Below are positions 58,185-63,845 of a DNA stretch of 64,000 bases, one piece after another. Numbering within the stretch: position 1 is the stretch's first letter; every line of letters starts with the position of its first letter. The stretch is taken from contig JAPPBY010000005.1 of the NCBI GenBank assembly GCA_026702615.1, positions 1 through 64,000 on the forward strand, given 5' to 3'. The notes under the pieces are model-generated. The model searched no databases, had not been told where the DNA came from, and saw nothing but the letters and a program-made list of their open reading frames with translations. This DNA is from Chloroflexota bacterium. Its GTDB lineage: Bacteria; Chloroflexota; Dehalococcoidia; Tepidiformales; Tepidiformaceae. A program made the position numbers and the translations under genes.

Positions 58185-59848
58185 CTGGAGAGCGCCAGCA
58201 GTCGCGCCGCGATCTCCCGTGCTTCCTCGAGATCCTCCGCGAAGCGATCCTCGGGAACCCGGTCCAGCACGTTCAGCGACTCCATCGCCCTGCGCGACGA
58301 TCCCCTGAGGCCCATCACGATGACCTCCGTGTCCTGCGCGATCGCCGTGTCTACCAGCTGTTCGACTACGAGGGCCGCGCTGTCGTCCACGTAAACCGTC
58401 TCGGAGAAGTCGAGGATGACCACCTCGTGGTCGCGGATGTCCATGCTGATGGTGGTGATCAGCTTGCTCGAGGAAGCCACCGTGAAGCTCCCACGCAGCG
58501 CGACGAGGCCCACTCGTGCGGAGAACGCGTCGATATCGGCCGGACTCTCTTCGCCGGTAAAGAAGCTGCGGTCCAGCAGCGGCACCGAGACCACGCTGTC
58601 GAGCTGCAGCCGCTCGAACTGCCGGGCGCTGGCCATGCCCGCCGCAATCAGGCCGATCGCAACCGCGGATACCAGGTCCAGGAACACCGTCATGGCCAGG
58701 GTGATCAGCATCACCAGCAGGTGCTCACGTTGCACGTGCAAGAGCCGCGTGAGGAAGCGCCAGTCGATGATGTCCCAGCCGACCTTCATCAGGATGCCCG
58801 CGAGCACGGCCTGGGGAATCTCCTCCGCGAGGGGTCCAAGGCCCAGCACCAGTGCTAAGAGGATCGCCGCCCGCAATACGCCCGAGACCGGCGTGCTGCC
58901 ACCGGCTCGCAGGTTCACCACCGTGCCAGGGGTAGCGCCGGCGCCCGCCAGCCCTCCGGAGAGCGCCGCCGCCACGTTGCCGATGCCCTGCCCCATCAGT
59001 TCCTTGTTCGGGTTGTGCTGCGTCCGCGTCATCGAGTCGGCGATGAGCGAGGTCAGCAGGCTGTCGATCGCTCCCAGTAGCGCGAGGGTGATGGCTGGCT
59101 GCACCATGCTTGCCAGGAAGCCCGCGTCGAGCGCAGGCAGGCCGAAGTCGGGCAGCCCCCTGGGCACGGCGCCGATGTCGCCGATCACGGGCGTGTTCGA
59201 GAGCCAGAGCACGCCGATGACGGTTCCCACGACGAGCGCCGCCAGCGTCGGCGGCAGGAACTTCCGGAACTGCTGCGGCCAGAGGATGCCTACCAGCAGG
59301 GTCGCCGCGGCGATCGCGAACGCCTCGAAGTTGACGTCCCCGAGCACCTCCGGCCAGGCCCGCATCGCCTTGAGTGGCCCGCCCGTGGGCACGGCCCACC
59401 CCAGGAACGGCAGCGTCTGGATGATGATGATGATGATCCCGATGCCCGACATGAACCCGGACGTCACCGAGTAGGGCGTGTACGAGATGAATCGCCCGAT
59501 GCGCAGGACGCCCAGGAGAATCTGGATCACCCCGGCCATCATCGCGATCGCGAGGGCCTTTGAGAGATCGCCGTCGGCGTGCACGGTGAAGATGACCGCC
59601 ATGGCCACCGACGTCGGCGCCGTGGGACCCGAAATCTGCGACCTCGTGCCGCCGAACACCGCCGCGAAGAAGCCCACGGCGATCGCCCCGTACAGCCCTG
59701 CCGCCGCCCCCAGACCCGAGGCCACGCCGAAGGCGAGCGCGATCGGCAGTCCGACGACCGCCGAGGTGATGCCGCCGAAGATGTCCCCGCGGAACGTATC
59801 GAGGCTATAGCTCACCCGTGGCATGGCTTGGGAAAGGCGATCCGTCAT
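58181..59848 (-). CDS. SulP family anion transporter with C-terminal STAS domain
   Basis: 555 aa, ATG 59848; ATG 59824 is an alternative. Membrane domain with GITSAVVGLPIALAFGVASGLGAAAGLYGAI, GGTRSQISGPTAPTSVAMA, then LLGAIDSLLTSLIADSMTRTQHNPNKELMGQGIGNVAAAL, typical SulP/SLC26 substrate-site sequence. The cytosolic STAS domain (about 430-545, with VVILDFSETVYVDDSAAL in the anti-sigma antagonist-like position) is intact. SulP proteins move sulfate, bicarbonate or dicarboxylates. The adjacent beta-carbonic anhydrase favours bicarbonate (inference). Last gene of a three-gene operon. Confidence 0.94.
   Translation of the reverse strand: MTDRLSQAMPRVSYSLDTFRGDIFGGITSAVVGLPIALAFGVASGLGAAAGLYGAIAVGFFAAVFGGTRSQISGPTAPTSVAMAVIFTVHADGDLSKALAIAMMAGVIQILLGVLRIGRFISYTPYSVTSGFMSGIGIIIIIIQTLPFLGWAVPTGGPLKAMRAWPEVLGDVNFEAFAIAAATLLVGILWPQQFRKFLPPTLAALVVGTVIGVLWLSNTPVIGDIGAVPRGLPDFGLPALDAGFLASMVQPAITLALLGAIDSLLTSLIADSMTRTQHNPNKELMGQGIGNVAAALSGGLAGAGATPGTVVNLRAGGSTPVSGVLRAAILLALVLGLGPLAEEIPQAVLAGILMKVGWDIIDWRFLTRLLHVQREHLLVMLITLAMTVFLDLVSAVAIGLIAAGMASARQFERLQLDSVVSVPLLDRSFFTGEESPADIDAFSARVGLVALRGSFTVASSSKLITTISMDIRDHEVVILDFSETVYVDDSAALVVEQLVDTAIAQDTEVIVMGLRGSSRRAMESLNVLDRVPEDRFAEDLEEAREIAARLLALSS
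59420..59437 (-). repeat. Trinucleotide microsatellite (GAT)6
   Basis: Six tandem GAT units on the plus strand code for a run of Ile within a SulP TM helix. Slippage by one unit would keep the frame and change helix length by one residue. Confidence 0.85.
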
Positions 59849-59922: not shown

Positions 59923-60414
59923 CTAGGAGACCTCGTTCAGTTTCCCTGTCGCGCAGTCATAGACGAACCCGCGAATGTCGTCCGTGTTCGGGATGAACGG
60001 GCTTGCCTTGATGCGCGCGATCGACTGACGGACGTCGCCGTCGAGATCGTCAAACGCCTCCATCGCAAACGACGGCCGGATGCCCGTGTCGGCCGCGATC
60101 GCGTCTTTCACGTCGTCGTCGCGGAAGGTCATCATGCCGCAGTCGGTGTGGTGGATGAGCATGATCGAGGTGGTGCCCAGCAGCCGCTGCGAGATCGTGA
60201 GGGAGCGGATGGCGTCATCCGTCACGACGCCCCCCGCGTTGCGGATGACGTGCGCGTCGCCCACGTTGATGCCCAGCAGGGCGTGCGTGTCGAGTCGCGC
60301 GTCCATGCACGCCACCACCGCCAGCCCCAGCCCCGGTGGCGCGTGCGCATCACCCTTGTCGAAACTCGCGGCGTAGCTCGCGTTGTTCTCCAGGAGATCG
60401 TCGATCGCGGTCAT
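59923..60414 (-). CDS. Beta-class carbonic anhydrase
   Basis: 163 aa, ATG 60414. Zinc ligands C36 and D38-R40 dyad in CMDAR, then H89-x2-C92 in HHTDCGM, and the VIRNAGG loop, as in small bacterial beta-carbonic anhydrases (Rv1284/CanB-like type II). It interconverts CO2 and bicarbonate. It lies 30 bp after an NCS2-type permease gene and 74 bp before the SulP gene on the same strand, so a role in bicarbonate transport or pH balance is likely. Confidence 0.94.
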   Translation of the reverse strand: MTAIDDLLENNASYAASFDKGDAHAPPGLGLAVVACMDARLDTHALLGINVGDAHVIRNAGGVVTDDAIRSLTISQRLLGTTSIMLIHHTDCGMMTFRDDDVKDAIAADTGIRPSFAMEAFDDLDGDVRQSIARIKASPFIPNTDDIRGFVYDCATGKLNEVS

Positions 60415-60444: not shown

Positions 60445-62205
60445 TTAGGAGTCCCCCTCGGGCGGGACGACGCGGACGGCGATGATATCCGTGTCGTGGT
60501 ACTGCTGGTGTGTCACCGATTCGGCGTAGCTCCGGAGCAGCACGAGCGAAAGTTCCTCTTCGACAGCCGTCAAAGAGTCGTGCTCCTGGATCTGCCGGAT
60601 CTGGTCCTCGAGGTTGGCGCCCGCGCCTCCCCCGATGAACTCGAGGTCCGCCGTCGTCCCCTCGCTCGAGGCAAGCACGACGAGCTGGCGTTCGTCCTTC
60701 GGTTTCTCGTCCTCGTCATCGCCGCCCAGGCTCAGGTCAAGCGGCGCCAGCGTCAGGAGCGTCTCCTCGGCGACCGCGGTCAGCCGCTCCTGCATCGCCG
60801 AGTCCCAGTTCCGGCGTCTCGCGAATCTCGTGATGAACTCGTTCAGATCCGGCAGGGCGTCGACATTGAGCTGCGACTGGAAACGCATGCGCCGCGGGTT
60901 CGTCAGCTCCAGGTACAGGATCATCACGATCGCGGCGAGCCCGCCCGTCGTGATCCCGCTCTTCAGCAGCGCGTTGCCGACGGCCCCGATGTCCGGCAAA
61001 TGGAATAGCTCGAACTGGAACGATGCCGCGATCCAGAAGCACACGCCGGCGACTGCGATTTTCTCCTGGCTCTGCTCGTTCTGGATGACCGTCCGCGCGC
61101 CTTCGACGAAGAGTGCGCCCGTCACCATGATCAGGTACCCCGTCATGACCGGCCCAGGGATGCTGCTGAGCACCGCCGACACCTTTGGCAGGAACGCCAC
61201 GATGATGAGGATGGCGCCGATGAAGTAGCCCACCCGCCGCGCCGCCACGCCCGTGATCTGCGTGAACGAGACCATGGCCGGGTTGATGGCGTTCGGCACC
61301 GTTCCCGCGAGCCCCGCGAGCAGATTGCTCGCGCCGGCCCCTGCCACCGCCCCCTGCACCTGCCGGAAGCTGACCGCGCGGTTGTCGCGCCAGGCGACCC
61401 GCTGCATCGCGATGGTCGCGCCGTTCGCCTGGATCGCGATGATCACGCCGAGGAAGAGGAACGCTGGCACCAGCGTCCAGAAGTCCACGCTGAAATCCAG
61501 CCTGAGCCCCGGCGACTCGCTCGGGACGCCCACCCAGTTCGCCGCCGTGATGCGTCCCGTATCGAAAATGCCGAGCGCCCCCGCCACGACGCAGCCGACC
61601 ACGATTCCCGCGAGCGGCCCCCAGAAGCGCAGGAACGCCGAGCCACGCAGCATCAACGCCGCCGCCACCACCATTGTCGCGAGCGCCGTCAGCGATGCCT
61701 CTTCCGGATCGGCGCTGGTGGCGTCGTCCAGCAGGTCGAACACCACCGAGGCCAGCGTGATCGACAGGATCATCATCACCGTGCCGCCCACCGTCGGCGT
61801 CACGAAGCGGCGCAGGATGAAGAGCCAGCGCGAGACGACGAGCTGCACGATCGCCGAGAGGACGACGAGCGTCGTCAGCGTCGCCGGCCCCCCGTCGACA
61901 AGGGCGGTGATGCAGAACGGGATGGCGAAGGCCGCCGTGAACATCGGCAGCACCGCCCCCGCCCCCACGAACCCGAGCTTCCGCACCTGGATGATAGTCG
62001 AGAGCCCCACCACCACCAGCGACGCGAACACCATCCACGTCACGTACGAGCCACCCCGGTCCGCCGCGTTGGCGACGATCACCGGCGTCACCAGTAGCGT
62101 TGCCGAGGCGATCAGGCTGAACTGCAGGCCATAGCCGAGGGAGCTCAGGAGGGGCGGCTTGTCGTCCGCCTCGTAGCGCGGGTGCTCGGGAGCTGCAGCG
62201 GCCAT
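60445..62205 (-). CDS. NCS2 (UraA/SLC23-fold) permease fused to a degenerate RsbW-like ATPase domain
   Basis: 586 aa, ATG 62205. The first about 435 residues are an NCS2-type transporter with about 14 TM segments (SLGYGLQFSLIASATLLVTPVIVANAA, TPTVGGTVMMILSITL, AGTVPNAINPAMVSFTQITGVAARRVGYFIG, PGPVMTGYLIMVTGALF). After it comes a cytosolic domain (about 445-580): LNEFITRFARRRNWDSAMQERLTAVAEETLLTL, an acidic loop, then ADLEFIGGGAGANLEDQI and LSLVLLRSYAESVTH. This aligns with the HATPase/RsbW anti-sigma kinase fold, but the N-box Asn and the DxGxG motif are not conserved. First gene of an operon with carbonic anhydrase and SulP-STAS. Transported substrate is unknown. Confidence 0.87.
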   Translation of the reverse strand: MAAAAPEHPRYEADDKPPLLSSLGYGLQFSLIASATLLVTPVIVANAADRGGSYVTWMVFASLVVVGLSTIIQVRKLGFVGAGAVLPMFTAAFAIPFCITALVDGGPATLTTLVVLSAIVQLVVSRWLFILRRFVTPTVGGTVMMILSITLASVVFDLLDDATSADPEEASLTALATMVVAAALMLRGSAFLRFWGPLAGIVVGCVVAGALGIFDTGRITAANWVGVPSESPGLRLDFSVDFWTLVPAFLFLGVIIAIQANGATIAMQRVAWRDNRAVSFRQVQGAVAGAGASNLLAGLAGTVPNAINPAMVSFTQITGVAARRVGYFIGAILIIVAFLPKVSAVLSSIPGPVMTGYLIMVTGALFVEGARTVIQNEQSQEKIAVAGVCFWIAASFQFELFHLPDIGAVGNALLKSGITTGGLAAIVMILYLELTNPRRMRFQSQLNVDALPDLNEFITRFARRRNWDSAMQERLTAVAEETLLTLAPLDLSLGGDDEDEKPKDERQLVVLASSEGTTADLEFIGGGAGANLEDQIRQIQEHDSLTAVEEELSLVLLRSYAESVTHQQYHDTDIIAVRVVPPEGDS

Positions 62206-62696: not shown

Positions 62697-63845
62697 ATGA
62701 TTGACTGGCTTGGCATCGAGCATCTCTTCGAACTGTCCACCGGGGAGAAGATCGCCGGGATATTCACGCCTCTCGCCATCTTCGCCGCCTTCGCCATCGC
62801 GACGGTCGTCCTGCCGGGGAGGTGGGTCCCCGGTTACGTAACGGACCCGGCGACCGGCGAACCCCGCCGGTACCGCCTCAACGGCCTCCTCGTCTTTGTC
62901 GTTGCGGTGCTCGTGTGGGGCTTCGAGGTCATCCCCGGACTCGATCGGGAGTTCTTCTACCGAACCTCGCTCTACGCCGTCGCCGGTGGAACCGGCTTCT
63001 GCCTGCTCTTCACGGCGCTGGCCGTGTACACCCAGCCGAGGGTCGAGAACCGCAATCCCATCATCGACTTCTACCTTGGCCGTATCCAGGAGCTGAGGTT
63101 CTTCGGCGACCGCCTCGACCTGAAGATGACCTTCTACGTCGTCGGCGGGACGATGCTGGGCATCAACGCCATGTCCGGTGCGGCCTGGCACTACGAGCAG
63201 TTCAGCCCGACCAACGAGGTCAACCTCGGCGTCTTCCTCTACGCCGCTATCTTCACCTTTTACGTCTTCGACTACTTCGTCTTCGAGCGCGTCCAGCTCT
63301 ACACCTTCGACCTCATCCACGAGCGGATGGGCTTCAAGATGTTCTGGGGCGACAACATCGTCTACGGGTGGCTGTTCATCATTCCCCTGTACGGCATGGC
63401 CGCCTACCCGGACCCCGGCTTCGGCACCGCCTGGACGTACGTCTGGATCATCGGCGCGTCCGCGCTCTTCCTCGTCGGATGGAGCATCTCGCGCGGCGCC
63501 AACCTGCAGAAGTACACCTTCAAGCGCTGGCCTGACCGCAAGTTCCTGGGCATCATCGAGCCCCGCTACATCCAGGCCGGCGAACGCAAGATCCTGACCA
63601 GCGGCTACTGGGGCGCCGCCCGCCACTTCAACTACATGGGCGAGGGCTTCTTTGCGCTGGCCGTGGGCCTCTCTTTCGGCCACTTCGACGTCGCCTGGTC
63701 GTGGGCCTACGCGATCTTCGTCATCTCCATGTTCACCTGGCGCCAGGTCGAGGACGACCGCGCCTGCGCGGAGAAATACGGCCCCGAGAAGTGGGCCGAG
63801 TACCAGGAGAAGGTCCCTTACCGCATCGTCCCGGGGATTTACTAG
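62697..63845 (+). CDS. ERG4/ERG24-family sterol/isoprenoid reductase homologue
   Basis: 382 aa, ATG 62697. About nine TM helices. The C-terminal signature of the ERG4/ERG24 family is present: LTSGYWGAARHFNYMGEG (about 301-318), then W.QVEDDRACAEKYGPEKWAEY.EKVPYRIVPGIY (352-382), where the family binds NADPH. Family members reduce C14, C7 or C24 double bonds of sterols. Other motifs: NPIIDFYLGR, WGDNIVYGWLFIIP, NLQKYTFKRWP. Substrate could be a sterol, hopanoid precursor or another polycyclic isoprenoid. No other sterol genes are in the window. Confidence 0.88.
   Translation: MIDWLGIEHLFELSTGEKIAGIFTPLAIFAAFAIATVVLPGRWVPGYVTDPATGEPRRYRLNGLLVFVVAVLVWGFEVIPGLDREFFYRTSLYAVAGGTGFCLLFTALAVYTQPRVENRNPIIDFYLGRIQELRFFGDRLDLKMTFYVVGGTMLGINAMSGAAWHYEQFSPTNEVNLGVFLYAAIFTFYVFDYFVFERVQLYTFDLIHERMGFKMFWGDNIVYGWLFIIPLYGMAAYPDPGFGTAWTYVWIIGASALFLVGWSISRGANLQKYTFKRWPDRKFLGIIEPRYIQAGERKILTSGYWGAARHFNYMGEGFFALAVGLSFGHFDVAWSWAYAIFVISMFTWRQVEDDRACAEKYGPEKWAEYQEKVPYRIVPGIY

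Follow-up and report, generated by a model that had tools for sequence, protein, structure and literature searches.

What is the folded domain that follows the last transmembrane (TM) helix of an NCS2-type permease in a Chloroflexota genome, and what could a transporter do with it? The gene lies in the window, by which we mean the whole stretch of 64,000 nucleotides that was analysed, and the preliminary description had read its tail as a degenerate RsbW-like domain with altered ATP-binding motifs. The permease and its tail are placed as follows.

60445..62205, minus strand: permease of 586 aa, NCS2/SLC23 type, with a pseudo-RsbW domain at its C-terminus (Pfam PF00860, E 5e-31; best PDB matches of its model UapA, SVCT1 and UraA)
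60448..60885, minus strand: C-terminal RsbW/SpoIIAB-like domain (HATPase_c_2 fold), residues 441-586 (AF2 model; Foldseek and VIA; bridge relative)

The permease belongs to the NCS2/SLC23 (NAT) transporters. The Pfam family Xan_ur_permease (PF00860) covers residues 24-390 above its cut-off, the full-length model (mean pLDDT 85) has the UraA/UapA fold, and SLC26 and SLC4 structures rank below UapA, SVCT1 and UraA among its PDB matches. The tail comes directly after the last TM helix, and the span with the predicted RsbW/SpoIIAB/UsfX fold comprises residues ~441-582. The coordinates first given for it (residues about 445-586, positions 60445-60873) stand except at the start, which lies about four residues earlier.

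An AF2 model of the tail, built on an alignment of 62 natural sequences, reached a mean pLDDT of 78 and a pTM of 0.74, and its elements follow the order E-H-H-E-E-H-H-E-E as in solved RsbW/SpoIIAB structures. The pLDDT exceeds 90 across strand 1 and helices 1-2, and falls below 50 in an acidic loop and in part of the former lid. When the tail alone was searched against the PDB with Foldseek, as had been proposed, the first nine places were all taken by UsfX/SpoIIAB anti-sigma factors (E 5.7e-5 to 1.1e-3, probability 1.00). VIA-align gave Z 13.8 against Bacillus subtilis RsbW (rmsd 3.0, 110 aligned) and likewise Z 13.8 against UsfX, with SiaB and LvrC at 9.8 and histidine kinases at 7.0 or less; no better match to a different fold appeared, other folds lying well below 13.8.

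The window tail alone has no Pfam match and does not reach the HATPase_c_2 cut-off, so that sequence by itself is insufficient here and the RsbW assignment is carried by structure and by relatives. Two of the 62 relatives' tails match HATPase_c_2 weakly, and the tail profile aligns by hhalign with local RsbW alignments at E 4e-6 to 1e-4 (one of them at 3e-5), while a STAS profile used as negative control remained at a probability of 0.1-0.2%. The two families are bridged by a divergent full-length protein in genome G479 that scores 141 bits for PF00860 and 43.8 bits for HATPase_c_2 (cut-off 27.4), and of which genome G218 carries a 96%-identical copy. On the strength of this bridge member and the STAS control, we rejected a chance or convergent fold. 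Fold, profile comparison and bridging relative together confirm that the tail is a degenerate RsbW/HATPase_c_2-type domain, as the preliminary description held. Several other matches were rejected: the best NCBIfam match to the tail (acVLRF1, E 0.044) and a GAL4 chain that matched at E 0.043 when PDB profiles were searched are at chance level; and among HATPase_c_2 matches in frames of ~580 aa, which had seemed candidates for further transporter fusions, the five that were read look like PP2C-RsbW proteins or chance frames, not transporters.

The motifs with which an RsbW-type kinase would hold ATP map to three places in the tail.

60742..60774, minus strand: degenerate N-box VAEETLLTLAP (478-488); Glu480/Glu481 invariant in 71/71, Asn position = Thr485
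60625..60654, minus strand: degenerate G1 region TADLEFIGGG (518-527); Asp of DxGxG replaced
60538..60561, minus strand: degenerate G2 region EEELSLVL (549-556); GxGL glycines changed to Glu/Ser

All 29 genuine RsbW domains examined from this phylum have the N-box Asn, the G1 Asp, the G1 Gly and the G2 glycines without exception, and the window tail lacks the N-box Asn, the DxGxG Asp and the GxG glycines that mark an active serine kinase of this type. The alterations at the N-box and DxGxG that had been noticed from the sequence are borne out as Thr485 and, by alignment, Gly525, and the loss is family-wide. Among 23 diverse tails the N-box Asn is absent throughout, the G1 Asp survives in the bridge member alone, and hardly any of the G2 glycines remain. 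The catalytic, serine-contacting Glu of the N-box is kept, as E481, in every one of the 71 tails, and E522, N531, D534, S553, V564 and H566 are each conserved in more than 95% of them. Over 65 close pairs, omega has a median of 0.078 for the tail and of 0.066 for the TM part, and mean similarity between paralog groups is higher in the tail (41%) than in the TM part (37%). The tail is thus under purifying selection despite the loss of its ATP motifs; the low omega and the new set of conserved residues indicate a maintained domain and exclude decay as a reading of it. The best-supported interpretation is a pseudo-ATPase that acts as a putative binding module; besides the selection, the helix expected to face a STAS protein, which the tail has kept, and the co-occurrence with RsbW described below speak for it.

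The transporter part has changed as well. Work on UapA calls its residues E356, D388 and N409 irreplaceable and lists Q408 among the contacts to the substrate (PMC3405029); in the window permease three of the positions concerned read as follows.

61429..61431, minus strand: TM8 substrate-site position (UapA E356) = Gln259
61336..61338, minus strand: UapA D388 position = Ala290
61276..61278, minus strand: TM10 NAT signature position (UapA Q408) = Ala310; N409 and G411 positions changed too

With M311 at the N409 position, the protein has neither the TM8 Glu nor the D388 Asp nor the TM10 signature [QEP]NxGx4T of NAT nucleobase transporters (PMC3405029). Of 72 family members, 16 have E at the TM8 position, 27 have Q, 26 have K and 3 have R, and this position covaries with that of D388, where Asp occurs in exactly the 16 members with TM8 Glu and in 0/56 others. 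The TM10 signature [QEP]NxG is absent from all tailed members, and the residues at the TM substrate site vary from one paralog clade to another in a consistent way. To judge from these residues, the substrate of the window clade is probably other than a canonical nucleobase, and clades with Lys or Arg at TM8 may take anions. Gene neighbourhoods of the paralogs gave no guide to substrate.

How widely does the fusion occur, and with what? The tailed family comprises at least 71 distinct sequences (<85% identity), and five full-length tailed paralogs are found in the genome of the window alone. In six-frame searches the tails sit on open frames mostly of ~570-700 aa, and on shorter ones in a few draft contigs. 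Two incomplete relatives were seen in the same genome. One is a short, apparently degenerate piece of a further tailed-type permease, N-terminal part only (L140 1170-1691, on C28). The other is a frame (L139 925-1824, on C3 at ~77924-78823) in which the first ~100 residues of the neighbouring tailed permease run on into an apparent cytochrome P450 C-terminal part; it sits just upstream of the intact permease and looks like a tandem duplication or an assembly artefact. The distribution of the tail is known within Chloroflexota, the profile counts that follow come from one class, and the plasmid records searched gave only NCS2 matches that all end before the tail domain.

In a class sample of 294 genomes, with genuine RsbW called at E <= 1e-14, 31 genomes carry the tail and 42 carry RsbW. 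Genuine RsbW is present in 31/31 tailed versus 11/263 untailed genomes (Fisher 5e-33, not corrected for descent), and counted by genus in 10/10 versus 7/174 (P 2e-12, descent ignored). In the genus of the window, tail and RsbW occur together in six genomes and are both absent from two; both are likewise absent from large-genome relatives (2.7-4.2 Mb) in the same family. Such co-occurrence can reflect shared descent or lifestyle; that the tail is found only in genomes of the class that keep a genuine RsbW suggests that the signalling switch may control the transporters directly. A STAS protein is present in all 20 tailed genomes tested, and RsbW lies within ~2 kb of an RsbV-type STAS protein in the genomes where positions were compared. 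In genus g21, RsbW was observed within a frame of ~685 aa, possibly fused to a phosphatase.

The window's genome contains the RsbV-type STAS protein, PP2C phosphatase and RsbW that make up a partner switch. Its RsbW operon, which is not adjacent to the permease gene, has the order STAS protein (with an SSAG serine motif), REC-PP2C, RsbW, periplasmic binding protein and HAMP histidine kinase (L210 2182-7630); the PP2C is of SpoIIE type and fused to a response regulator, and no sigma factor occurs among the scanned genes of the operon. The tails form a single clade (support 0.93), which falls together with the RsbW of the same genomes at moderate support (0.645), and W467, R474, E480 and E481, the W...R...EE helix, are common to the tails and the RsbW of the lineage; this Trp and this Arg are, however, missing from L141, the tail that most resembles RsbW. 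On alignment with B. subtilis RsbW, R474, E480 and E481 correspond in position, as a mapping only, to D42, S48 and E49, which touch RsbV in the crystal structure (PMC7340262). Since E481 is also the catalytic glutamate, its retention is compatible with other ligands too.

Fold, homology, lost ATP motifs, selection and co-occurrence, all obtained by computation and from sequence, form the basis on which we propose a mechanism. On balance we lean towards the view that the pseudo-RsbW tail regulates transport by docking a protein of the partner switch, RsbV being the likeliest. A copy of the kinase domain of the lineage's own RsbW would have been joined to an SLC23/NCS2 transporter and, its ATP binding lost, have been retained as a cytoplasmic docking domain throughout a transporter family. 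Its ligand would most likely be the STAS protein RsbV of the co-occurring RsbV/PP2C phosphatase/RsbW switch. The phosphatase, here the response-regulator-PP2C fusion whose gene neighbours those of the periplasmic binding protein and the histidine kinase, would dephosphorylate RsbV. RsbV would then dock on the tails and alter how active the dimeric transporters are or how they assemble, until the genuine RsbW phosphorylates RsbV and so releases it. More tentatively, this could amount to a partner switch with membrane transport as its output, in which dephosphorylated RsbV on the pseudo-RsbW tails of an entire SLC23-type transporter family, some members of which have recharged substrate sites, switches uptake directly, with no sigma factor in between.

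A tail that serves mainly homodimerisation or stability would need no signalling partner. RsbW and SpoIIAB dimerise through helix 1 and strand 1, the RsbW dimer interface has been described (PMC7340262), both elements are confidently predicted in the tail, and SLC23 transporters are dimers (PMC6308229, PMC6497670), so that two tails could clamp the transporter dimer. We regard this as unlikely, however, because it accounts neither for the restriction of the tail to genomes with RsbW nor for how little the polar residues E480, E481, E522, N531 and H566 vary. Alternatively, the former ATP pocket may have been turned to sensing another small ligand, for instance a substrate or a nucleotide, and gate the transporter in cis; the conserved E480/E481, N531, E533, D534 and S553 align to the N-box, the start of the former lid and G2. 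This we consider quite improbable, as the former lid is poorly predicted, the residues are placed by alignment alone, and the co-occurrence with RsbW again finds no explanation.

Docking of RsbV is the reading that we prefer, and the genes beside the permease offer a different candidate for the STAS partner.

59923..60414, minus strand: beta-carbonic anhydrase gene, 30 bp downstream of the permease, the sole Pro_CA match in the genome
58181..59848, minus strand: SulP (SLC26-type) transporter ending in a STAS domain (58220-58516); the genome yielded only one other STAS domain

The SulP-STAS gene lies two genes downstream of the permease, and its STAS tail could in principle meet the pseudo-RsbW tail in trans and couple two transporters of related fold. 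SulP is found near tailed NCS2 genes in G504, L013, G033 and G117 also. Yet most relatives lack a SulP neighbourhood, and no SulP match was obtained in two of the tailed genomes, G218 and G404, which removes SulP-STAS as an obligate partner of the tail and makes the coupling as a whole very unlikely. Carbonic anhydrase adjoins tailed genes in G404 (C88:62871), L028 (2363-2854) and L051 (3138-3629), in differing arrangements, and the linkage of carbonic anhydrase and SulP to tailed genes is recurrent, not general. Beta-carbonic anhydrase was also seen beside SulP in G010 and G502. On the other side, upstream of the permease and divergent from it, the window encodes an ERG4/ERG24-type sterol reductase-like protein (62697-63845, plus strand; PF01222 E 2e-36). 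That the tail is still an anti-sigma factor holding a sigma factor at the membrane, with the transporter as a signalling receptor and not a carrier, is extremely unlikely: the anti-sigma fold and the changes at residues essential for nucleobase transport in UapA speak for it, but the scanned RsbW operon includes no sigma factor, and the clade-consistent differences at the TM substrate site look like adaptation to different substrates, not decay.

No fusion of an RsbW-type tail to an NCS2 transporter was found described in the literature searched, the coverage of which was incomplete; the parts are known, and their combination and the co-occurrence with RsbW appear to be new. SLC26/SulP transporters carry the STAS half of partner switching, the role of which is only partly explained, and here the related SLC23 fold carries an apparently disarmed RsbW. 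Should RsbV bind the tail, transport would come under the direct control of partner switching, and the two natural fusions, as complements of each other, would allow the function of signalling tails on the 7+7 TM fold to be tested. The tailed family also tolerates large changes at a substrate site that is held irreplaceable in the SLC23 member UapA.

Among known systems, the anti-sigma serine kinases RsbW, SpoIIAB and UsfX (HATPase_c_2) resemble the tail in predicted fold, in the order of strands and helices and in the N-box Glu, and the RsbW of the lineage in its W...R...EE helix. Unlike them, the tail lacks the N-box Asn, the G1 Asp/Gly and the G2 Gly, has an acidic loop between its helix 2 and strand 2, and is fused to a membrane transporter. 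UraA, UapA and SVCT1 (NCS2/NAT, SLC23) share the transporter fold and PF00860 above its cut-off, whereas the tailed members have a folded C-terminal domain, Q, K or R in place of the TM8 Glu in most clades, and have all lost the TM10 [QEP]NxG. In the ABC transporter MlaFEDB the STAS protein MlaB is a separate subunit that binds the ABC ATPase, with no RsbW-type domain (PMC7367683). SulP/SLC26 transporters offer the same 7+7 TM fold class and a cytoplasmic C-terminal domain related to partner switching; their tail is STAS, the anti-anti-sigma half, whereas the tailed NCS2 permeases carry the anti-sigma (RsbW) half.
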